Shown one piece after another: positions 46,506 through 57,147 of a stretch of 64,000 nt of DNA. Location: assembly GCA_902562875.1 (NCBI GenBank), contig CACEVB010000003.1:1-64000 (forward strand). Direction: 5' to 3'. The translations under genes were made by a program, and so were the position numbers. The notes beneath the pieces were generated by a model, which saw only the letters and a list, made by a program, of their open reading frames with translations, was not told the origin of the DNA and did no database searches. Source of the stretch: an uncultured Pelagibacteraceae bacterium (GTDB lineage Bacteria; Pseudomonadota; Alphaproteobacteria; Pelagibacterales; Pelagibacteraceae). Positions within the stretch are counted from its first letter, which is position 1. Every line of letters begins with the position of its first letter.

Positions 46506-47368
46506 GTTATTTTTTCTCCTTTTTTTGTGTAAACAATTAAAATAACTCCAAATAAAATTATTGAACCTCCTAAATATAATTCAGTAGTTGGGCTTTCTTT
46601 AAGTAGAAGTATTGCTGCCAGTAAACCAGTTAGCGGAATACCCATTGTTACAATAGGCAAAACTTTATAAAGAGGATTATTCTTTAATACATAATAAAAA
46701 CACCCATAAGTAACAGGCTGCATAAAGAAACCTAAATAAATAGCAATTATCCAAGAATCCATGTTCGCAGACTTTATGTAATTTAAAGAATTTCCATCAA
46801 AGATATTTGATAATAATATTAATATTGGTCCAGAAAAAAGTGCTAGCCATGCAACTAAAGTTAAAGAATTCAACTCCTTACTTAAAGGCTTAACTAATAC
46901 TTGTCCTAAAGCCCAAATGCCTGATCCTAATATAGTGAGAAAAATTCCTAAAAATTTTCCATCTAAACTTGGTGAACCAATTAAAACATATACTCCAATA
47001 AAGGCTACAAATATTCCAATCAAACTTCGTATCGTTGGTTTTTCTTTAAGCATAAAATATGCAAACAAAACACCAAATGGAACTTCTGTTTGCACCAACA
47101 AAACTGCTGCAGAGGCATCTATTAAATTTAACCCACTATAAGTAACACTGTATTGAATTGTATTTGCAACTAATGATGCGATGAAAATTTTTACAAGATA
47201 TCCTTTAGGTACTGGAAACCACCATATTAAAATGGATGCTGCGAATGTGAATCTCAAACCCATTAGAAGTATTGGAGGAAAATCATCCATTGCAGGTTTC
47301 GCTATTACAAAACCAAATCCTAAAAAAATTGGTACTAATGAAGCAATAAGTGAATCTTTAATTGTCAA
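46502..47368 (-). CDS. EamA-family DMT transporter (copy 3)
   Basis: 288-aa inner-membrane protein with two EamA repeats: PIFLGFGFVIAKPAMDDFPPILLMGLRFTFAA and FGVLFAYFMLKEKPTIRSLIGIFVAFIGVYVLIG, then LLAAILLLKESPTTELYLGGSIILFGVILIVY. The start overlaps the end of the dioxygenase gene upstream by 4 nt, so the two are likely coexpressed and might handle related metabolites (inference). Substrate unknown. Confidence 0.88.
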   Translation of the reverse strand: MTIKDSLIASLVPIFLGFGFVIAKPAMDDFPPILLMGLRFTFAASILIWWFPVPKGYLVKIFIASLVANTIQYSVTYSGLNLIDASAAVLLVQTEVPFGVLFAYFMLKEKPTIRSLIGIFVAFIGVYVLIGSPSLDGKFLGIFLTILGSGIWALGQVLVKPLSKELNSLTLVAWLALFSGPILILLSNIFDGNSLNYIKSANMDSWIIAIYLGFFMQPVTYGCFYYVLKNNPLYKVLPIVTMGIPLTGLLAAILLLKESPTTELYLGGSIILFGVILIVYTKKGEKIT

Positions 47369-48468
47369 AAATTAAATTTTCTTTTTAAATGTCTTAATTT
47401 ACCCTCTGTACTATCAAAATCAATATATGCACCTTGTAGAAATCTACTACCTTCATTTGTATCAAATTCTGTTCTACCATGTAACAATCTATAATTATCC
47501 ATCATCAATAAATCTCCAGGCATTAACTTAAATTCAATTCTATATTCATCTGAATTATACATTTCAGAAATTTTATTCCTTGCTTTATAGTATAGATCTA
47601 ATTCTTTTTTTTTTAAAATTGGTACAAAATCTAATCTTGGACTAAATTTAACTTGTTTAAATTTTTTATTTTCATCTAATTTTATTAATTCTGACCAACC
47701 TTCTAAAATAACATCTTTGTCTATAAATTTAAATTTGACCTTTACCTTTGTAAGAATGTCATAATATTCTCTAAATTTATTTTTTAGATCTTCGGTTACT
47801 GTGTAACCATCTACTAAAGTTGAAAAACCCCCAGTCACTTCATTAATTATACAATGTAAAAGCTGAATACAAGGGACCGGATTTCTATATGGATTATCAG
47901 TATGTGGAGCGAGAGGTAAGGATGTGTATGCTAAATCGTTTGGATTTGGTAAAGATTTAACATTAAAAAATTCTCCAAAATTCGTTCTTCTTATACTTCC
48001 TATAGAATTTGCAAATTTTACTATGAAATTATCATTAGTAGGAACATTTTTAAAAATTACAAAACCATATTTATAAAACTTAATTAGTAAATCATACATA
48101 ATCCTACTCTCGAAAAGATCATCTGTGTAATTATATTTTTCAAAGTTAACAAAGGTAGAATTCCATTTCTCTTTTTTTAATGATTGAATAAAAAAATCAT
48201 CTTTAGAATATTCTTGTATGATTTTATCAATCTCTAATTTAAAATTCACACCGTCGTTAAAGTCTATCTCAAGAAAATCATTATTAATATTTGCACTTTT
48301 AATAGAAATATCAGTTTTTAAACAAGTTGGATCAAATTTTCTTTGCTGCGTATAATTATCAAAGTATTCCTCATTACTGACCCTCTCTCTTAACCAGAAA
48401 GGATGAATCTCTTCAGATGAAGATCCATTATTAAATAGAACTTTGTTATTGTGCAATTCAATTTTCAT
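47365..48468 (-). CDS. BBOX/TauD-like Fe(II)/2-oxoglutarate dioxygenase
   Basis: 367 aa. The N-terminal DUF971-like segment (IHPFWLRERVSNEEYFDNYTQQRKFDPTCL) joined to a TauD domain is the layout of gamma-butyrobetaine hydroxylase and trimethyllysine dioxygenase. The 2-His-1-carboxylate facial triad is visible: HTD in LAPHTDNPYRNPVPCIQLLHC (about 192) and the distal His in MMDNYRLLHGRTEFD, followed by Arg for 2-oxoglutarate in GSRFLQGAYID. Carnitine-related or another quaternary-amine oxidation is plausible, but the substrate is not proven. Confidence 0.85.
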   Translation of the reverse strand: MKIELHNNKVLFNNGSSSEEIHPFWLRERVSNEEYFDNYTQQRKFDPTCLKTDISIKSANINNDFLEIDFNDGVNFKLEIDKIIQEYSKDDFFIQSLKKEKWNSTFVNFEKYNYTDDLFESRIMYDLLIKFYKYGFVIFKNVPTNDNFIVKFANSIGSIRRTNFGEFFNVKSLPNPNDLAYTSLPLAPHTDNPYRNPVPCIQLLHCIINEVTGGFSTLVDGYTVTEDLKNKFREYYDILTKVKVKFKFIDKDVILEGWSELIKLDENKKFKQVKFSPRLDFVPILKKKELDLYYKARNKISEMYNSDEYRIEFKLMPGDLLMMDNYRLLHGRTEFDTNEGSRFLQGAYIDFDSTEGKLRHLKRKFNF

Positions 48469-48524
48469 TATTTGTAGGATTATTTAAAATTTAACTTTTA
48501 TCAAGATAAATAAAATAGTATGAC

Positions 48525-49337
48525 ATGATAATCATGACACAGATTAAAAAGTTTAATTACAAAATCTATTATAAATTCCTCAATAATTTAGCAAAAGAAT
48601 TAACTAGATTTTATATTGCGAAATTAAATAAGTCTTTTAAGGTGTCTAATAAATTGAAGGGAAGAGGATATGACCCAGTTACATCATCCGATAAAGCCTT
48701 TGAGAGGTTTATAAGGTCTAAAATTACAAAAAAATTTCCTGATCATCAAATTATAGGAGAGGAATTTGGTAAAAAAAAATCAGATAGTAATTATTCTTGG
48801 GTAATAGATCCAATAGATGGGACAAGGTCCTATGTTATCGGAAATCCTTCATGGAGTAATTTAATTTCTATAAACTATAAAGGTGACCCAATTTTAGGAT
48901 TAGCAAATTTTCCCGAATTAAAAAAATATTATTTAAATTTTAACAATAAAGTTGCGTATAAATTTGAAAATGGAAAAAGAAAAAGAATAAAAGTTAATAG
49001 TAAAGTAAACTTTAATAAAGCTAGAGTTGCTGGTGCATTTCATGGAGGATTATCGTTAAATAAACAAAAAAAAATTCCTAAAGTTCTAAAACTTCTTGAG
49101 TTTCCATGTTTTGATGCTTTAAGTTACTCACATTTAGCTGAAGGTAAAATAGATATAGTTTTACAATGTGGAAATAAAATATGGGATATTCACCCGCTAA
49201 TTCCTATAATTAATGCAGCAGGAGGGAAAGTGTCAACTTGGAAAGGAAAGGAGGCAAAGAGAGGTGGAAATATTATCGTTGCCAATAATGAAAAGAATAA
49301 AAAACAAATGATCAAATTACTTAAACCAGTAAGTTAA
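48525..49337 (+). CDS. hisN: Inositol monophosphatase-family protein, HisN-like histidinol phosphatase
   Basis: 270 aa, Mg-dependent phosphatase fold. Metal ligands in IIGEEFGKK (about 83), WVIDPIDGTRSYVIGNPSWSNLIS (about 99) and WDIHPLIPIINAAGG near the C-terminus, which together form the IMPase signature. DPIDGTRSYVIGNPSW resembles bacterial HisN more than inositol phosphatases, but this assignment is by recollection. An ATG at 48534 is an alternative start. First of a hisN-AhpD-DUF952 set. Confidence 0.78.
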   Translation: MIIMTQIKKFNYKIYYKFLNNLAKELTRFYIAKLNKSFKVSNKLKGRGYDPVTSSDKAFERFIRSKITKKFPDHQIIGEEFGKKKSDSNYSWVIDPIDGTRSYVIGNPSWSNLISINYKGDPILGLANFPELKKYYLNFNNKVAYKFENGKRKRIKVNSKVNFNKARVAGAFHGGLSLNKQKKIPKVLKLLEFPCFDALSYSHLAEGKIDIVLQCGNKIWDIHPLIPIINAAGGKVSTWKGKEAKRGGNIIVANNEKNKKQMIKLLKPVS

Positions 49338-49346
49338 AGGAGGACT

Positions 49347-49739
49347 ATGCCAATTTTTAAACCAATAAATGAAAATGAAGCATTAGGTAAAGTAAAAGAA
49401 GTTTATGAAGATATAAAAAGTTCTAGAAAAATAGAAGAGGTTCCAAATTTTTGGAAATATATTGCAAATGATCATGAAACACTTGAGAGAACATGGAGCT
49501 CAATGAAACAGGTTATGAAAAAGGGTGCATTAGACGAGATAACAAAAGAATTAATTTATGTTGCTGTTTCGGTTTCAAATGGATGCGAGTATTGCATTAG
49601 ATCTCATAGTGCAGCAGCAATTAAAAAAGGCGCAACTAAAGAAATGCTAAGCGAAATGATTGCAGTAACAGGTATGGCTAACGAAGCAAATAGATTAGTT
49701 GAAGGTTATCAAGTAGAACTAGATGAAAAATTTAAATAA
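49347..49739 (+). CDS. AhpD-like / carboxymuconolactone decarboxylase-family protein
   Basis: 130-aa alkylhydroperoxidase-type protein with a strong Shine-Dalgarno (AAAGGAGGACTATG). The redox CxxC and nearby His are in VSNGCEYCIRSHSAAAIKKGAT (about 75-95), the AhpD signature. It probably reduces peroxides or acts as a disulfide-based oxidoreductase in the cytoplasm; the electron donor is unknown. One of several thiol/oxidative-stress genes in the 49-57 kb region. Confidence 0.85.
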   Translation: MPIFKPINENEALGKVKEVYEDIKSSRKIEEVPNFWKYIANDHETLERTWSSMKQVMKKGALDEITKELIYVAVSVSNGCEYCIRSHSAAAIKKGATKEMLSEMIAVTGMANEANRLVEGYQVELDEKFK

Positions 49740-50062
49740 TGAGAATAGACTATGTTTATAAAATTTGCACAAAAAAAGAGTGGGATAATTTAAAACAAAA
49801 AAGATCTTGGCAGGGATCAAGAAGTGATATTAAAGACGGATTTATTCATCTTTCAAATAGGGAACAAATTAATCAAACTTTAAAAAAGTATTATTTAGGT
49901 CAAAAAAATTTAATTTTATTAATTTTAAAAGTAGATACTTTAACAAATCTTGTTTGGGAAAAATCTACTAATGGAGAAAAATTTCCACATTTATACTCTA
50001 AGTTAGAAATAGATAGTGTTTTAGATAGCAAAGAAGTTATTGGTGACCAATATCTCTTCTAG
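49739..50062 (+). CDS. DUF952 family protein
   Basis: 107-aa protein with the DUF952 pattern: VYKICTKKEWDNLKQKRSWQGSRSDIKDGFIHLS, LILLILKVDTL, LVWEKSTNGEKFPHLYSKL. This fold resembles ADP-ribosyl-transferase-like small domains, but function is unknown. Its ATG overlaps the AhpD-like stop, and its 3' end overlaps the convergent small membrane protein by 26 nt. Confidence 0.82.
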   Translation: MRIDYVYKICTKKEWDNLKQKRSWQGSRSDIKDGFIHLSNREQINQTLKKYYLGQKNLILLILKVDTLTNLVWEKSTNGEKFPHLYSKLEIDSVLDSKEVIGDQYLF

Positions 50063-50282
50063 GATCTTTTGTGTTTCTTATTTTATCTAAAAATCCTGAT
50101 AATTTTGCAGTTATATATATGATATATACAACCGTTAAACCAAGGGCCATTGTTGATAAGAAAGTGTATAAGGCTGTTAAAAATTGTTCGCCAACCCAAG
50201 AGTTAAAATCTCCATTAGCAAAATAAAGAACATTCCAAAATATAACAAAGAATACTTCATATAATATTATAATTTTAAACAT
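50037..50282 (-). CDS. Small inner-membrane protein of unknown function
   Basis: 81 aa with two hydrophobic helices (IIILYEVFFVIFWNVLYFA and a segment near FLSTMALGLTVVYIIYITAK) and a charged C-terminus (KIRNTKDPRRDIGHQ). No family recognised. Last gene of the minus-strand run of small genes; it lies 25 nt after DUF2798, and its 3' end overlaps convergent DUF952. Confidence 0.6.
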   Translation of the reverse strand: MFKIIILYEVFFVIFWNVLYFANGDFNSWVGEQFLTALYTFLSTMALGLTVVYIIYITAKLSGFLDKIRNTKDPRRDIGHQ

Positions 50283-50307
50283 TTTTTCAAATCAGTTTAT
50301 AATCATT

Positions 50308-50535
50308 CTAAGATGATTTAGTAATTTTTTCCACAAGTTTTCTTGCAACAGGAGCAACGAATAAAATAGCTGTTATAGCTATAGGAAAGCTTATTAACCA
50401 AGCTTTTAAAAATCTGTTAACAAATTTATCGTCCATTCCTGTGTTTATAAATGTAATTATTAATGTCATTAATAAACTCATTCCAAATCCCATTATTAAA
50501 GTAAATAAAAGATTAGAATATTTTTTTGAAAACAT
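50308..50535 (-). CDS. DUF2798-like small membrane protein
   Basis: 75 aa with two helices. KYSNLLFTLIMGFGMSLLMTLIITFINTG and FLKAWLISFPIAITAILFVAPVARKLVEKI match the DUF2798 pattern (F-x2-L-M-x3-M-x-F ... W-x2-a-w-x-v-a-f-P). Function unknown. It starts 3 nt after the TPR gene upstream on the same strand. Confidence 0.75.
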   Translation of the reverse strand: MFSKKYSNLLFTLIMGFGMSLLMTLIITFINTGMDDKFVNRFLKAWLISFPIAITAILFVAPVARKLVEKITKSS

Positions 50536-50538
50536 TTA

Positions 50539-51090
50539 TTAAATGCTTTCTTGTTGTATCAATATTTGAAGTTTTTCAATCATCATTAATGGAGTTTTCA
50601 TAGCTGGATAGACTTTGTGTGCCTCAACATAACTATCAATTGCTTTTTGATAGTTTTTCAAAGCTGTTTGAACCATCCCTTGTCCAGATAAAGCACCAAA
50701 ATGCCTTTTCTCTAGTTTCAAAACTTCATCAATATCATTTTGCGAAAGTTCATAACTGCCCATCAAGTATAGCACTGTTGCTCTTTTATTCCACGCCTCT
50801 GCCCATTTAGGATCTAATTCTATAGCTTTTGAAAACACATTGTGTGCTGAAGTCAGTTGGTTTTGAGACATATAATATGAACCTTTTGCAAGAAGATTTG
50901 TAAGACTTTCTTCAGAGGGATGAGTAGTCCACATCTTCCAAATTTTAGTTTCAATTTCTTTTGCAGCAATAGAGCTGTTTGTGCTCTTTAACTGATTAAA
51001 TAAATTATTTAATTTTGTATTGTATTGATCACTTGCATACGAAATACATGATAAAGAAATTAATATTAAAGATAATAATATTTTTTTCAC
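50539..51090 (-). CDS. Exported TPR-repeat protein
   Basis: 183 aa. Signal peptide with cysteine in the h/c region (LLSLILISLSCISYASDQ), so either a secreted or a lipid-anchored form is possible. TPR-like helices follow: SYYMSQNQLTSAHNVFSKAIELDPKWAEAWNKRATVLYLMGSYELSQNDIDEVLKLE, then a third repeat near AVDSY. Probably a periplasmic protein-interaction module. It starts next to the NTF2-like gene with no gap. Confidence 0.72.
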   Translation of the reverse strand: MKKILLSLILISLSCISYASDQYNTKLNNLFNQLKSTNSSIAAKEIETKIWKMWTTHPSEESLTNLLAKGSYYMSQNQLTSAHNVFSKAIELDPKWAEAWNKRATVLYLMGSYELSQNDIDEVLKLEKRHFGALSGQGMVQTALKNYQKAIDSYVEAHKVYPAMKTPLMMIEKLQILIQQESI

Positions 51091-51411
51091 TTATTTTGGC
51101 ATAGGAGTTGCACCAGTCTCAAGACTCATAATTTTTCCATCTTTATATCTATAAACTGCCATCACTGCCTCAACATTACCGTCATCAAAAGTTACAAAAG
51201 CATGGTGAACACCTACTTCGTCATTTTCATAAACAACTCTTGATTTATCTTGTTTGATATCACCACTCATAGCCCATTTAATTATATCACTTTTCCCCAA
51301 AGTGTTTCCTGATTTATGCATAGTAAATTTAAAATCATCGTGCAAAAGATTATTCATAGATGCCTCATCTTTATTTTTAATTGCACTACTATATTTTTCT
51401 ATTATTGACAT
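51091..51411 (-). CDS. NTF2/SnoaL-like protein (copy 1)
   Basis: 106 aa with a compact NTF2-like pattern: IIEKYSSAIKNKDEASMNNLLHDDFKFTMHKSGNTLGKSDIIKWA, then beta strands ending VMAVYRYKDGKIMSLETG. No signal peptide. The fold often binds small hydrophobic ligands or acts as an isomerase; here the ligand is unknown. Strong GGAG ribosome-binding site. Confidence 0.72.
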   Translation of the reverse strand: MSIIEKYSSAIKNKDEASMNNLLHDDFKFTMHKSGNTLGKSDIIKWAMSGDIKQDKSRVVYENDEVGVHHAFVTFDDGNVEAVMAVYRYKDGKIMSLETGATPMPK

Positions 51412-51436
51412 TTATATTCTCCTATATTTTATTTTT

Positions 51437-51742
51437 CTACATAGTACTAGACTCTTCACAAATTACAAAAGTACTTTTTTCATCTGTATTTGATCTTCTG
51501 TGTCCAACTATTTGCTGATGTGCATCTGAATTATACCAACCCATTGCCTTTTCCTTGCTCTCGAATTCAATAACAACTGAAAGTGTACCTTGTTCACCCT
51601 CGCTTGCTAGTTTATCTGGGGTTCTTACTAAAAATTTTCCTCCATATGCCTCAATTGTTGCATCAACTTTTGATGCATAATCGGCTCTAAACTTCTCCAT
51701 ATTTTTTATTTTTGGATGAGCTATGACATAAGCTTTTCCCAT
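51437..51742 (-). CDS. DUF1330 family protein
   Basis: 101-aa dimeric alpha/beta-barrel (Dabb-like) protein. KAYVIAHPKIKNMEKFRADYASKVDATIEAYGGKFLVRTPDKLASEGE and VVIEFESKEKAMGWYNSDAHQQIVGHRRSNTDEKSTFVICEE are characteristic of DUF1330. Function unknown. Preceded by a strong GAAAGGAG site. Confidence 0.85.
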   Translation of the reverse strand: MGKAYVIAHPKIKNMEKFRADYASKVDATIEAYGGKFLVRTPDKLASEGEQGTLSVVIEFESKEKAMGWYNSDAHQQIVGHRRSNTDEKSTFVICEESSTM

Positions 51743-51760
51743 TTTAATCTCCTTTCAATA

Positions 51761-52084
51761 TTATTTTCCTGGTTTAATTACACTATTAGCTGCATTTGCT
51801 GCGTTACTAAAAGCCCTATTATAGTCAATTACCTCATGAACCATTAAATCATCCATAAGGCCAGAATTTTTAAAAGCTATTTTTAATGCAACGGCTTGCT
51901 CATATTCTCCTTCAACGCAAGAAATTACATCAAATCTGCCTCTTACCCACTCGTACGAAACAAGCTTTAAACCAGCTGCTTCTGTCGCTTTTTTTGTAGA
52001 AGCAAATCTGTCTGCAGTTGGTTCATTTTGCATTCTCTTCATTAACTCTCCACTTATTTTACCTATTAAATAAAATTTTGCCAT
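51761..52084 (-). CDS. GYD-domain protein (copy 2)
   Basis: 107 aa, same family as 39482-39799: KFYLIGKISGELMKRMQNEPTADRFASTKKATEAAGLKL, YEWVRGRFDVISCVEGEYEQAVALKIAFKNSG. The two copies share P-T-x-D-R and V-R-G-x-x-D but are otherwise diverged. The Dabb-like fold matches its neighbour DUF1330. Function unknown. Ribosome-binding site TAGGAGAATATATG. Confidence 0.8.
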   Translation of the reverse strand: MAKFYLIGKISGELMKRMQNEPTADRFASTKKATEAAGLKLVSYEWVRGRFDVISCVEGEYEQAVALKIAFKNSGLMDDLMVHEVIDYNRAFSNAANAANSVIKPGK

Positions 52085-52095
52085 ATATTCTCCTA

Positions 52096-52473
52096 TTATT
52101 CCAATGTTCCTCTCAGTTTTTCAATTTGATCTTTAGAACCCGGTATCAAATCATAAATAAATGAATTACATTTATCATTTCTTTCTTCATTAAATGGTTT
52201 ACCAATTAATTTGTCCAATTCTTCGTTAGTACCTTTATTAATTTCCTCGCCTTTAACTTTTTCATTTAGTAAATATTCTCTTACAATTTTGTAAGAGGCT
52301 AAAGCGTATTCAAGTCTGATAGCCTCAATTTCATTAGCAGGTATAAATGATATCGAAGTATAATGACCCAAGCATTTTATGGCTTTTTCCTTGTCCTCTT
52401 TAGTTATATGGCCTCCTGCAAAAGAAATATTAGTGTAAAAAATGATTATCAAACTTAAAAATATTTTCTTCAC
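52096..52473 (-). CDS. Secreted protein of unknown function, paralogue A
   Basis: 125 aa with a cleavable signal (KKIFLSLIIIFYTNISFAGG). The mature part has two cysteines (EKAIKCLGHYTS and NDKCNSFIYDLIPGSKDQIEKLRGTLE). It is clearly related to the adjacent protein at 52476-52853: both 125 aa, both with one Cys after KDxEKA, a GTN motif and a C-terminal D-x-C-x2-F...IP-x2-KD-x2-EK. A disulfide in the periplasm is likely. No known family recognised. Confidence 0.6.
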   Translation of the reverse strand: MKKIFLSLIIIFYTNISFAGGHITKEDKEKAIKCLGHYTSISFIPANEIEAIRLEYALASYKIVREYLLNEKVKGEEINKGTNEELDKLIGKPFNEERNDKCNSFIYDLIPGSKDQIEKLRGTLE

Positions 52474-52475
52474 TT

Positions 52476-52853
52476 TTAATATAAAGTTTGTACAACTTTT
52501 TCGACACGGTCTTTACCATTTGGAATAGTTTCCTCTAAAAAAGTATGACAATTATCAGTTAGCTCTTTGTTATATTTTGAGCCGTAATATTTATCCACTG
52601 CCTTGTTAGTTCCATCGTCCCAGTCTTTTTCCTTAATACCTATCTCTAAAGCATAAGTTTTCCACACTTTAACTGAAGCCATAGATTTTTCCTTCATACT
52701 ATACTCAAAAGTTTCTCCAGATGGTAAAAAGTAATTAGCCATATATATACCAACACAATCCCACGCTTTCTCAGTATCTTTTTTACTTAAACTTTCAGCG
52801 TTTGCAGTATTTATAAATATAAAACTTGTTAAGACTAATATTAATTTTTTCAT
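52476..52853 (-). CDS. Secreted protein of unknown function, paralogue B
   Basis: 125 aa, signal peptide KKLILVLTSFIFINTANAES with an AxA cleavage site. Mature protein: KKDTEKAWDCVGIYMANYFLP...DDGTNKAVDKYYGSKYNKELTDNCHTFLEETIPNGKDRVEKVVQTLY. It aligns end to end with paralogue A just downstream, indicating tandem duplication followed by divergence. The two cysteines are conserved between copies. Ligand or partner unknown. Confidence 0.6.
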   Translation of the reverse strand: MKKLILVLTSFIFINTANAESLSKKDTEKAWDCVGIYMANYFLPSGETFEYSMKEKSMASVKVWKTYALEIGIKEKDWDDGTNKAVDKYYGSKYNKELTDNCHTFLEETIPNGKDRVEKVVQTLY

Positions 52854-52855
52854 AA

Positions 52856-53146
52856 TTAAACCTCAACTTTTGATAATTCCCACAATTGCACATTATCTAC
52901 ACATTCTGCATAAATTGCTTTAGCTTTTGGGTTATTTCCAGCAACAAATTCTTTCATTCCCGACTCATTATGAACTGAAACCTTAAACAGAATACCGCTT
53001 TTATCAGGTTTCATTCCTCCAATAGTTTTTTCTGGATAAGCAACACTTTTTCTTACTTCCATACCCTCATCAGACTGCATCCATCCCATAAAAGTTTCTA
53101 GTTTACCTTCTTTAAGGTTAACTAAAGCTAACATTTCTTTTTCCAT
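52856..53146 (-). CDS. Small cytoplasmic protein, possible Dabb/ABM-like fold
   Basis: 96 aa, no signal. MLALVNLKEGKLETFMGWMQSDEGMEVRKSVAYPEKTIGGMKPDKSGILFKVSVHNESGMKEFVAGNNPKAKAIY suggests an alternating beta-alpha-beta pattern as in small dimeric barrels, but I do not recognise the family with confidence. Ribosome-binding site AAGGAG. It sits between the secreted pair and the SnoaL-like gene, within the same run. Confidence 0.55.
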   Translation of the reverse strand: MEKEMLALVNLKEGKLETFMGWMQSDEGMEVRKSVAYPEKTIGGMKPDKSGILFKVSVHNESGMKEFVAGNNPKAKAIYAECVDNVQLWELSKVEV

Positions 53147-53170
53147 TTTTTTCTCCTTATAAAAAATTAT

Positions 53171-53554
53171 TTATTTTTTCATCGCATTAAACATGCTTAG
53201 AGTATCATCAAAAGTCATCATAATTTTAGTTTTTCCTTCATCACTTGATTCAAAATAATGACCAAATATCGTGTCCATATTGTCAGCAGTTGCATGCACT
53301 CTAACAAATACTTTGTTACCTTCACTAATCATATCTAGAATCTTTAAATGAAAATTTGGCCATAATGATGGAATTTTTGACATTGCAGCCATCATCGCTT
53401 GTTTACCTTTATGAACTCCAGATAATGGGTGAACACCTTCTTTGCCTGGAAATGTCCATACAATATTATCATCAATCATTTCATTGAAAAAAGTTTCCAT
53501 ATCACCTTTGCCAAAAAGCTCATATGCTTTTCTTGTTTGCTCTTTTACGTCCAT
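53171..53554 (-). CDS. SnoaL-like / NTF2-like protein (copy 2)
   Basis: 127 aa. TRKAYELFGKGDMETFFNEMIDDNIVWTFPGKEGVHPLSGVHKGKQAMMAAMSKIPSLWPNFHLKILDMISEGNKVFVRVHATADN is typical of the SnoaL-like/limonene-epoxide-hydrolase-like superfamily. Substrate unknown. Strong AAGGAG ribosome-binding site. It is unrelated in detail to copy 1 at 51091, though both share the fold. Confidence 0.75.
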   Translation of the reverse strand: MDVKEQTRKAYELFGKGDMETFFNEMIDDNIVWTFPGKEGVHPLSGVHKGKQAMMAAMSKIPSLWPNFHLKILDMISEGNKVFVRVHATADNMDTIFGHYFESSDEGKTKIMMTFDDTLSMFNAMKK

Positions 53555-53585
53555 TTTTGCTCCTTTAGTTTACTTTATTTTTAAT

Positions 53586-53870
53586 TTACATTTTAGAAAA
53601 GTCCATCACCTGAGAACATTCCTCTGAAGTAGTGTCAAAAAAGTTATTCATGTCTCCCAACTGATCTATAATAGCTTGCGGGCTTTCTGCTTGCCATTTA
53701 CAATACATTTTCATCGAGCTTCCTGCGCCCATCATTGTCATGTGACACACAGCTTTTTCTCCATTCACACCTTTTTTAAGATCCTCTGGAGATGTTGAGC
53801 CAACAACTTCATGGAACTTTTTCTTCATTTCTTCCGATTTAAAAACGTGTGTTGCTAAGTAATCTTTCAT
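53586..53870 (-). CDS. Small protein of unknown function, first gene of the small-gene run
   Basis: 94 aa, no signal peptide. MKDYLATHVFKSEEMKKKFHEVVGSTSPEDLKKGVNGEKAVCHMTMMGAGSSMKMYCKWQAESPQAIIDQLGD could be another ferredoxin-like fold, with three cysteines and many methionines. No family recognised. Strong GAAAGGAAG ribosome-binding site, and a TATACT -10 candidate upstream, suggest it heads the run. Confidence 0.55.
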   Translation of the reverse strand: MKDYLATHVFKSEEMKKKFHEVVGSTSPEDLKKGVNGEKAVCHMTMMGAGSSMKMYCKWQAESPQAIIDQLGDMNNFFDTTSEECSQVMDFSKM

Positions 53871-53951: not shown

Positions 53952-54968
53952 TTATATCCAGCTAGGTACAGGAAGACCTTTTTCCTGTAAAAATTTCTTA
54001 TTAAACATCTTGGAGTTGTATTTATCGGATTTGTCGCAAAGGATTGTCACGATTGTTTTGCCTGGTCCTAATAATTTTCCTAATCTAATTGCACCAGAAA
54101 TATTTACTCCACAACTTGTTCCAAGACTTAAACCTTCGTTCTCAATTAAATCAAATAAAACCGGTAAAGATTCATTATCGCTTATAGAAAAAGCACCGTC
54201 GATTTTAGCCTCCGCAAAATTTGCCGTAACTCTACTTGATCCAATTCCCTCTGTTATCGATCCTCCTTCGCTCTTTAACTCACCATTTTCAATGTAGTTA
54301 TAAAGCGAGGAACCATATGGATCTGATAAATATATTTTAATATTTTTATTTTTCTCTTTAAGATATGAGCTAACACCTGCAATTGTCCCACCTGTTCCAG
54401 AAGCACAAACAAACCCATCAACTTTTCCGTCTGTTTGTTCCCAAATTTCAGGACCTGTACTTTCATAATGTCCTTTTAGATTAGCAGTGTTATCAAATTG
54501 ATTAGCCCAAACTACTCCATGGTTATTTGAGCTTTTTAATTCGTCTGCAAGTCTTCCAGCAACCTTTACATAATTACCATCATCTTTATATGGTTTAGGA
54601 GGAACTAATTTTAATTCTGCCCCCATGTTTTTGAGCATATCTTTTTTTTCTTGTGTTTGATTATCATTCATAACAATTACAGTTTTATAACCTACCGAAT
54701 TTCCAATTAGACAAAGTCCAATTCCAGTATTGCCAGCTGTTCCCTCAACAATAGTCCCCCCTTTAGAAATTAATTTTTTCTCTTCAGCATCTTTTATTAA
54801 AGCTAGTGCCGCTCTATCTTTTACTGATCCACCTGGATTAAGATATTCAGCTTTACCGTAAATATTGCATCCAGTTACTTCGGATGCAGCTCTTAATTTA
54901 ATTAAGGGTGTATTTCCAATTCCTGAAACAAAATTATTCTGAAAATTCTTCATTTTTTTCCTCGTCAC
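53952..54968 (-). CDS. cysK: Cysteine synthase A family (O-acetylserine sulfhydrylase)
   Basis: PLP enzyme that makes cysteine from O-acetylserine and sulfide. 338 aa. [16 protein letters not shown] lysine in [25 protein letters not shown] and the phosphate-binding GTGGTIAGV all present. The C-terminus is longer than in E. coli (about 323), ending GLPVPSWI, as in a group of alphaproteobacterial enzymes. An ATG at 54953 (MKNFQNNF) is an alternative start. It overlaps cysE by 35 nt, forming a cysE-cysK operon. Confidence 0.93.
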
Positions 54969-55518
54969 TTATACCATAAGGTTTAAATTCTTCTGTAGCT
55001 GTTCCAACATTTCTTGCTGGGATTCCTACCATAACTCCATTTTCAGGAACATCTTTAGTCACTACTGCATTTGCTCCAATTTTTGCGTTCTTTCCAACTA
55101 CAATAGGTCCAAGTACTTGAGCTCCAGATCCAACAACAACATGGTCATGAAGAGTAGGGTGTCTTTTAGTTTCTCTTTGATTTTCAGAATTTATACTTGG
55201 CGATATTCCTCCAAGTGTTACGTTATGATAAATTGTAACATTGTCCCCGATATCCGAAGTTTCTCCAATTACAACACCCATGCCATGATCAATAAATAAA
55301 TTTTTTCCAATTTTAGCTTTTGGATGAATTTCAATTCCAGTCATAAATCTTGAAAATTGAGAGACTACTCGTGCTATCAAATCAAACTTTGCAACTGCAA
55401 AAAAATTTGCAATTTTATGCATGAATACTGCTTTTGCACCTGGATAAGTTAGTATTACAGACAGTTTTGACTTAGCAGCTGGGTCTCTTTTTATTATAGA
55501 TTCTAAAAATTCGTTCAT
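54934..55518 (-). CDS. cysE: Serine O-acetyltransferase
   Basis: Makes O-acetylserine for CysK. 194 aa, the short EpsC-like form without the long N-terminal helices of E. coli CysE. Left-handed beta-helix hexapeptide repeats ([74 protein letters not shown]) and the catalytic His in FIDHGMG. The C-terminal tail is short and acidic (EEKNEEFSE); the tail is where feedback inhibition and CysK docking occur in the family. Confidence 0.95.
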
Positions 55519-55716: not shown

Positions 55717-56409
55717 CTAGATTTGGTCTAAAGTAAGACCCTTAACATTTGCAGGAACAGCAATATCCATCATTTTTGGATTAGATAAATTCAGATTTTG
55801 CATTATATCAGCATATTCTTCTTTAGATTTTACCTGCAATCTAGGATTATTATTTTTTTCATTTTCAATCGTTGAAAATTTATTTCCGTTATAATCGTGT
55901 GCTGGGTATACAAGAGTATTTTCAGGAAGTTTTAAAAGTTTATTAAACAGTGAATCGTAAGCATCATATGAGCTTCCATTTTGAAAATCTGTTCTACCTG
56001 TACCGTTAATTAATAATGTATCTCCTGTAAACACTCTATCATTCATCAGATAACTATAAGAACAATCAGTATGACCAGGTGTATACATTGCTTTTAGTTC
56101 AATATTTTCTATTTTAACTTTTTCGTTATCTTTTATTTTTAAATCTATTACCTCTGATTTTGAGTTCTCTCCCATTATTCTTGCACAGCTTGTCCTTTTA
56201 TTTAACTCATTTAACGCCGTTATATGGTCAGCATGAATATGTGTATCAATAACTTTGACTAATTTTAGTTTGAGATTTTCCAGAATTTTAAGATATTCTT
56301 CAGTGTGTTCAATAACTGGGTCTATAATTAAAGCTTCACGACCCTCTCCACTAGAAATAATATAAGTGTAGGTTGAAGATTTTTTATCAAATAATTGATT
56401 AAATATCAT
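55717..56409 (-). CDS. MBL-fold persulfide dioxygenase (ETHE1-like)
   Basis: About 230 aa from ATG 56409 (MIFNQLFDKKSSTYTYII), preferred over the track's 56448. Metallo-beta-lactamase motif THIHADHITALNEL, then TPGHTDCSYSYLMND, FTGDTLLINGTGRTDFQNG and VYPAHDYNG. These match ETHE1-type sulfur dioxygenases that oxidise glutathione persulfide to sulfite. Iron ligands would be the two His and Asp of these motifs. Placement beside cysEK supports a role in sulfur homeostasis. Confidence 0.85.
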   Translation of the reverse strand: MIFNQLFDKKSSTYTYIISSGEGREALIIDPVIEHTEEYLKILENLKLKLVKVIDTHIHADHITALNELNKRTSCARIMGENSKSEVIDLKIKDNEKVKIENIELKAMYTPGHTDCSYSYLMNDRVFTGDTLLINGTGRTDFQNGSSYDAYDSLFNKLLKLPENTLVYPAHDYNGNKFSTIENEKNNNPRLQVKSKEEYADIMQNLNLSNPKMMDIAVPANVKGLTLDQI

Positions 56410-56484
56410 ATATTTATTAATATTATAAAAAATTGCATAGCAAATCAATCTTGCATATAATTTAATTTAAAAAAGGAGACATAA

Positions 56485-57147
56485 ATGACATTAAAAATTA
56501 ATAGTGTTGCACCAGATTTTACAGCACAAACCCAAATGGGGGAGATAAAGTTCCATGAATGGTTGGGAGACAGCTGGGGAGTTTTATTTTCACACCCAAA
56601 AGATTTTACACCCGTATGCACAACAGAATTAGGCGCTTTAGCAAGAATGAAACCAGATTTTGATGCAAGAAACGTAAAAGTTATGGGTTTATCAGTTGAT
56701 CCTGTATCTGATCACGAAAAATGGTTAGAAGACATAACAGATGTATGTGGGATGAAACCCGAGTACCCAATTGTTGCAGATGAAAAGTTAGAAGTAGCTA
56801 AGTTATACAATATGTTAGAAGGTGATGCTGGAACTTCTTCAATGGGAAGAACAGCCGTTGATAACGAAACTGTGAGAACAGTATATATTGTAAGACCTGA
56901 TAAAAGAATCGGTCTATTTCTTACTTATCCAATGACAACCGGAAGAAATTTTGGTGAAATTTTAAGAGCAATAGACTCTATGCAAAGAACAGCTAAACAC
57001 AAAATAGCAACCCCTGCAGATTGGAAACCAGGCGAGGATGTAATTATTGTACCTAAAGTAACAAATGAGGAAGCTAAAAAAATATATCCAGATGGCTGGG
57101 AGACAATTAAGCCGTATTTAAGAAAAGTACCTGACCCACAAAAGTAA
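56485..57147 (+). CDS. 1-Cys peroxiredoxin (Prx6-type)
   Basis: 220 aa, strong AAAAGGAGACATAAATG start. The peroxidatic Cys is in HPKDFTPVCTTELGALARM (about 47). Length, GTSSMGRTAVDNETVRTVYIV and the C-terminal WKPGEDVIIVPKVTNEEAKKIYPDGW...PYLRKV match the Prx6 class; no second resolving Cys in the usual place. It reduces H2O2 or lipid peroxides. Followed by a methyltransferase frame that begins at its end. Confidence 0.93.
   Translation: MTLKINSVAPDFTAQTQMGEIKFHEWLGDSWGVLFSHPKDFTPVCTTELGALARMKPDFDARNVKVMGLSVDPVSDHEKWLEDITDVCGMKPEYPIVADEKLEVAKLYNMLEGDAGTSSMGRTAVDNETVRTVYIVRPDKRIGLFLTYPMTTGRNFGEILRAIDSMQRTAKHKIATPADWKPGEDVIIVPKVTNEEAKKIYPDGWETIKPYLRKVPDPQK

Follow-up and report, generated by a model that had tools for sequence, protein, structure and literature searches.

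A probable single-gene cassette slot downstream of cysK in SAR11 bacteria

What is a tight run of eleven small genes doing in the genome of a SAR11 bacterium? The question is raised by a 64,000-nucleotide stretch of contig CACEVB010000003.1 (the window, by which we mean this whole stretch), whose host belongs to SAR11 (Pelagibacteraceae); among named records that share the block, the closest come from single amplified genomes of uncultured Pelagibacteraceae. The listing of open reading frames (ORFs) in the window contains eleven minus-strand ORFs, from 53870 down to 50037, each of 75–183 aa and separated, in the order g01 to g11, by 31, 24, 2, 2, 11, 18, 25, 0, 3 and 25 nt; on strand, sizes and spacing the original prediction, made from the letters of this DNA, was correct. 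Genes of up to 183 aa account for 28 of the 71 called in the window, and eleven is the longest same-strand stretch of such genes, a length reached in none of 20,000 gene shuffles. The block lies immediately downstream of cysE-cysK, and its 3' end meets a convergent DUF952 gene that is followed by CMD and inositol monophosphatase family (IMP) genes. On the basis of sequence comparison with relatives, this block very probably represents one of the many contents of a hypervariable, co-directional slot that is fed from about 20 single-gene cassettes exchanged in SAR11.

The regions downstream of cysK were taken from 80 genomes and seven named loci, and their ORFs were called, clustered and read for order; both calling and clustering were simple, and the genomes are not independent of each other. 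Order was counted in 70 same-genus genomes in which the slot is complete to the opposite-strand anchor, with 26 genomes of <95% cysK identity as representatives, and the genome-wide controls for gene order rest on the fetched loci and on PMC2217521. Between cysK and the opposite-strand IMP/CMD/DUF952 anchor there are usually 8–12 genes from some 20 small single-domain families; these share the strand of cysK with few exceptions, inversions being confined to one membrane family and SMR. The original prediction had proposed a coordinated module and a synteny check across SAR11. Throughout the genus, the stretch downstream of cysK does bring together small genes of the same families in one orientation, but their order and content differ nearly everywhere: there are 57 distinct arrangements among the 70 genomes, all 26 divergent representatives differ, and 33 of 123 family pairs occur in conflicting order. 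Two representatives have an identical downstream neighbour for a given cassette in 6–47% of cases, versus 100% for cysE-cysK (300 of 300 genome pairs). The 5' part of the slot, from cysK to snoaL2, is the most variable, and the tail (snoaL2, then TPR or DsbA, then DUF2798 or SMR) is steadier. Since single-contig, closed genomes vary in the slot as well, the diversity does not stem from chimerism of metagenome-assembled genomes. The slot is nearly empty in L168, which we take to be HTCC1062: two SMR genes and a lone small ORF without family assignment are all it contains, so that a survey referenced on that strain could hardly have seen it. In one clade (L135 and L140–L148), a TRAP-like transporter block (f43–f46 and f39) stands between SMR and DUF2798, which indicates that larger insertions also enter the slot tail.

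Could such variety simply be the residue of a large ancestral operon, inherited vertically and eroded by the lineage-specific loss expected of streamlined genomes? A majority order is recognizable for many family pairs, and the presence or absence of families retains phylogenetic signal, as this explanation would have it. However, loss cannot reverse gene order, nor can it put near-identical genes beside others that are 43–51% identical, which is what a comparison of the window with the slot of L120 reveals: snoaL1 and g03 are both 97% identical, GYD 90%, SEC 76%, g01 51% and DUF1330 43%, with 90% for cysK and 66% for IMP in the anchors. More generally, the identity of cassettes between genomes is nearly independent of that of the flanking genes (r from −0.32 to 0.53). 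Between close genomes, the differences are clean insertions or deletions (indels) that cover one to three cassettes, and most blocks of homology run from a point 2–31 nt ahead of a start codon to one no more than about 20 nt from a stop.

Arrays outside the usual location point in the same direction. In another SAR11 genus (L196–L200) an array is found at a different locus, with g03 at 96% amino acid and 88% nucleotide identity and g01 at 97% and 90%, while cysK is just 59–61% identical; loss cannot yield cross-genus identities of 96–97% at that level of cysK divergence. This array ends with GYD and includes an extra 97-aa protein that appears Dabb/ABM-like by eye. In G033, the array (L201, 6046–9150) has been relocated beside sugar-nucleotide/O-antigen-like genes, accompanied by a cysK remnant of the final 49 codons, and the intact cysE-cysK of the same genome has no array, a displacement that loss cannot produce either. 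Given these observations, the ancestral operon appears quite unlikely. Mini-arrays are present in a single conserved slot of another family, in the forms g03-cupin-c27-snoaL2, g03-cupin-snoaL2 and g03-snoaL2 (G191, G418 and G495; L212, L213 and L214, respectively); one of these genomes is presumably HIMB59, and the lineage HIMB59-like. Among 385 genomes sampled across the class, g03 is restricted to SAR11 and the G191/G418/G495 lineage, and SEC to SAR11. DUF1330 genes that were looked at in SAR86 and in more distant SAR11 lineages are not in arrays.

If cassettes are exchanged, do they work as parts of one machine? The original prediction envisaged an envelope or stress module, and a machine with cooperating parts would account for the preserved co-location, co-direction and near-zero gaps, for the joint presence of cytoplasmic, membrane and secreted members, and for the finding that among representatives g03 is always accompanied by snoaL2 (18/18). 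Nevertheless, almost any subset of families occurs and no pair co-occurs significantly after correction (best p 0.0047, 171 tests), L168 is without nearly all of the array, and g03 is found without snoaL2 in the other SAR11 genus. The near-independent assortment of families favours a portable menu of independent parts over one machine, which we regard as unlikely; a fixed module is not supported by these data. An envelope or stress role would be speculative, and cytoplasmic pocket proteins make up the majority of members. Median dN/dS is 0.033–0.092 in 14 of 15 cassette families and 0.16 in sec26, compared with 0.068 for cysK, and by this measure the cassettes are under strong purifying selection, like cysK.

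The members themselves are all on the minus strand. The first, g01 (53586–53870), encodes a 94-aa cytoplasmic protein with a strong Shine-Dalgarno (SD) site and weak SCO4226-like similarity (E 0.12), and is found in 34 arrays. Two SnoaL/NTF2-like cassettes score above the SnoaL_2 (PF12680) cut-off of 27: g02 or snoaL1 (53171–53554, 127 aa; 44.4 bits, E 2.7e-11) and g08 or snoaL2 (51091–51411, 106 aa, SnoaL/DUF4440; 29.7 bits, E 1e-6), which has one match, a weak one, to solved structures by sequence and is among the best-kept array members (61 of 69 genomes). The DUF1330 protein g07 (51437–51742, 101 aa; E 1.9e-22, 79.8 bits) and the small membrane protein g10 (50308–50535, DUF2798; E 2e-23, 82.6 bits) pass the Pfam gathering cut-offs, and the TPR domain of the secreted g09 (50539–51090), whose GTG start abuts the g08 stop, is likewise above its own. 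These assignments and the pair of secreted paralogues, g04 (52476–52853, 125 aa) and g05 (52096–52473, GTG start), which are 36% identical, agree with the families originally listed; the exception is GYD, since g06 (51761–52084, 107 aa) matches PF08734 at E 1.4e-5 and 25.5 bits, below the 31.4 cut-off, and may be a distant relative. No Pfam family is above cut-off for g03, g04, g05 or g11 (50037–50282), the last an 81-aa membrane protein whose gene overlaps the convergent DUF952 gene by 26 nt. Slots of relatives hold further families above the Pfam cut-offs (SMR transporter, DsbA-like, DUF3764 and one of two cupins), as well as the second cupin, several secreted proteins and one multi-pass membrane protein.

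For g03 (52856–53146, 96 aa), a sequence search yielded no convincing solved homologue. Its model (pLDDT 67) has a ferredoxin-like α/β arrangement whose top Foldseek matches are NIPSNAP, Dabb and ABM proteins (E 7e-3, probability score 0.99), with a best Z of 7.7, under 8, in structural comparison; a dimeric α/β-barrel (Dabb) fold is the candidate, predicted at moderate confidence. The family falls into two classes with about 44% identity to each other that exclude one another: in 51 genomes, they never occur together. Many bacteria use the small cavities of Dabb, SnoaL/NTF2 and cupin folds to accommodate hydrophobic or reactive molecules, and proteins of the SMR type act as exporters. It is from these pocket folds and exporters that a function in small-molecule binding or detoxification is tentatively suggested, as a possibility on the doubtful side.

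The upstream anchor (53952–55518, minus strand) consists of cysE (54934–55518) and cysK (53952–54968), and the downstream anchor (47365–50062) of DUF952, CMD and IMP genes on the plus strand and TauD on the minus strand. Upstream of cysE, at 55717–57147, are genes for a metallo-β-lactamase-fold protein and a 1-Cys peroxiredoxin, with CMD on the opposite side of the array, suggesting a thiol- and peroxide-flavoured neighbourhood.

Small, variable, co-directional and transferred genes are also what an array of collected immunity genes against other bacteria (polyimmunity) would contain. The SEC family (g04 and g05) is predicted to form a helical bundle with two invariant cysteines (Cys33 and Cys102 in g04), and the type VI secretion immunity protein Tai4 (4jur_O, E 2.0) is among its fold matches, none of which is significant, ferritin-like and Tai4 entries being weak. 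Against this idea, most families, DUF1330, GYD, cupin, DsbA-like and SMR among them, resemble enzymes or transporters and show constraint on a par with that of cysK, a scan with a defence library returned just TPR and a weak cyclase match, and no toxin gene was recognized near the array; a phage library scan gave nothing useful. Polyimmunity is, on this evidence, very unlikely. Separately, an x-G-His start of the predicted mature chain, either GGH or DGH, which matches the amino-terminal copper- and nickel-binding (ATCUN) motif, occurs in members of four unrelated secreted cassette families: g05 in the window (GGH) and the sec26, scupin41 and sec81 cassettes in L116–L185. None was found in the other signal-peptide families sampled, although sampling was limited and signal peptides were called with a crude predictor.

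How, then, do the cassettes move? The cassette-like content might lead one to expect a phage, an integron or a transposon as the builder of the array. Instead, the median gap within arrays is 11 nt, too short for an attC site, and only 17 of 480 gaps are at least 57 nt; a scan of the window detected no tRNA; and no integrase, transposase or recombinase is among the Pfam-named array genes and neighbours, the unclassified genes of relatives having been scanned only in part. Scans of viral contigs with g03 and SEC alignments and a tblastn search of phage records with g03 revealed no relatives, and we consider a mobile-element origin highly improbable. The GC content of the array, just 1.0 standard deviation over the window mean, gives no signal of foreign DNA.

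The gene starts offer another candidate. The original prediction noted unusually strong SD sites; in the window alone, seven of eleven array starts are strong, which is not significant against the other genes (p = 0.08), and in the pooled relatives the claim stands for cytoplasmic cassettes, 64% of which reach an SD energy of −6 or below, compared with 18% of control genes and 19% of secreted or membrane cassettes. Some indels are flanked by near-identical repeats spanning the SD site and start codon, as in L126 versus L124 (AGGAGAAAAAAATG versus AGGAGGAAAAAATG), and the indel between L183 and L136 has AAAGGAG on both sides. A recombinase-free system could be imagined in which this ribosome-binding seam (A-rich, AGGAG, A-rich, ATG) supplies the short homology for exchange, each transfer then adding one intact, ready-to-translate gene to an operon. 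Such a causal role for the seam is speculative, as any gene-precise indel in an array of this kind would show the same repeats, and we hold it to be rather improbable.

Taken together, the explanation that we favour, and consider somewhat probable as a whole, is that of an exchanged cassette slot, read as an open-ended operon and serving small-molecule functions. The unit is very probably an ORF up to its stop, preceded by its own start region, often with a strong SD site. Through transfer between SAR11 lineages, one cassette or a few at once are very probably acquired, lost, exchanged for others or put in a new order, presumably via homologous recombination in the anchors and in shared cassettes, in addition to short seam repeats. 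The array would be read from the cysK side, and co-transcription of the cassettes is somewhat probable; scans for promoters and terminators were at shuffle expectation, and Rfam gave no structured RNA or riboswitch match near the block up to E 0.5. Each product may work on its own as a pocket protein (Dabb, NTF2 or cupin) for the binding or conversion of reactive small molecules, the periplasmic or export side perhaps falling to secreted and membrane members (SMR, DUF2798), and each genome would thus have a locally useful menu.

Several observations weigh against this explanation. Variability extends to genes past the IMP-TauD side, and the array could thus be the most pronounced section of a more extensive hot spot. 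The diversity of order is partly one of presence and absence, and some conflicts arise from duplicate copies such as a second snoaL2. On a flank-gene tree of 69 genomes, family presence changes 2–13 times per family, and g03 class switches number six versus 17 when shuffled, so that both presence and class keep some phylogenetic signal and exchange is frequent without being free-running. Finally, co-transcription is deduced from strand and spacing and function only from folds and neighbours, and the g03 model (pLDDT 67) is of just moderate confidence.

No description of a cassette locus downstream of cysK was found in the literature searched. A term check of four SAR11 flexible-genome papers (PMC7318151, PMC11898729, PMC12636525 and PMC12416821) found no mention of it there, and in a literature term search SAR11 and DUF1330 were not found together and Pelagibacter and SnoaL co-occurred only in a Vibrio study. 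Gene order in SAR11 is reported to be nearly fixed: 96% of neighbour comparisons retain it, and rearrangements fall at operon boundaries (PMC2217521). Shuffling of single genes inside a tight same-strand run is an exception to this rule. SAR11 are perhaps the most abundant heterotrophs of the ocean, and their classic reference strain, if we identify it correctly, is nearly empty at the slot. The locus can be viewed as a natural experiment in which cells gain and lose small-molecule functions gene by gene, and it supplies uncharacterized families under strong selection, two of which (g03 and SEC) are nearly confined to SAR11 in the class-wide sample.

Known variable loci resemble this one in part. 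Integron cassette arrays also consist of co-directional, probably promoterless single-gene units, but they have attC sites and an integrase, for which there is no room and no sign, respectively, here. The hypervariable regions HVR1–4 of SAR11 (Wilhelm et al. 2007, PMC2217521), which were defined on HTCC1062, lie at other places in that genome, starting at gene 42 and at genes 523–568, 1162–1173 and 1214–1221. In additive flexible genomic islands (Lopez-Perez et al. 2014, PMC4033161), strains vary in the presence of cassettes at one locus, as they do here; those islands are flanked by integrases or transposases, none of which was seen at this locus, where the unit is one gene in a tight same-strand run. 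Replacement islands, for instance the Pelagibacterales O-chain cluster (PMC4033161, PMC11898729), share a fixed place, variable content and likely recombination via conserved flanks. In contrast to the O-chain island, the slot is unlike a surface-polysaccharide cluster, and whereas replacement islands swap whole clusters, exchange and reordering here affect individual cassettes, which belong to recurring families. The locus fits the definition of neither the additive nor the replacement island.

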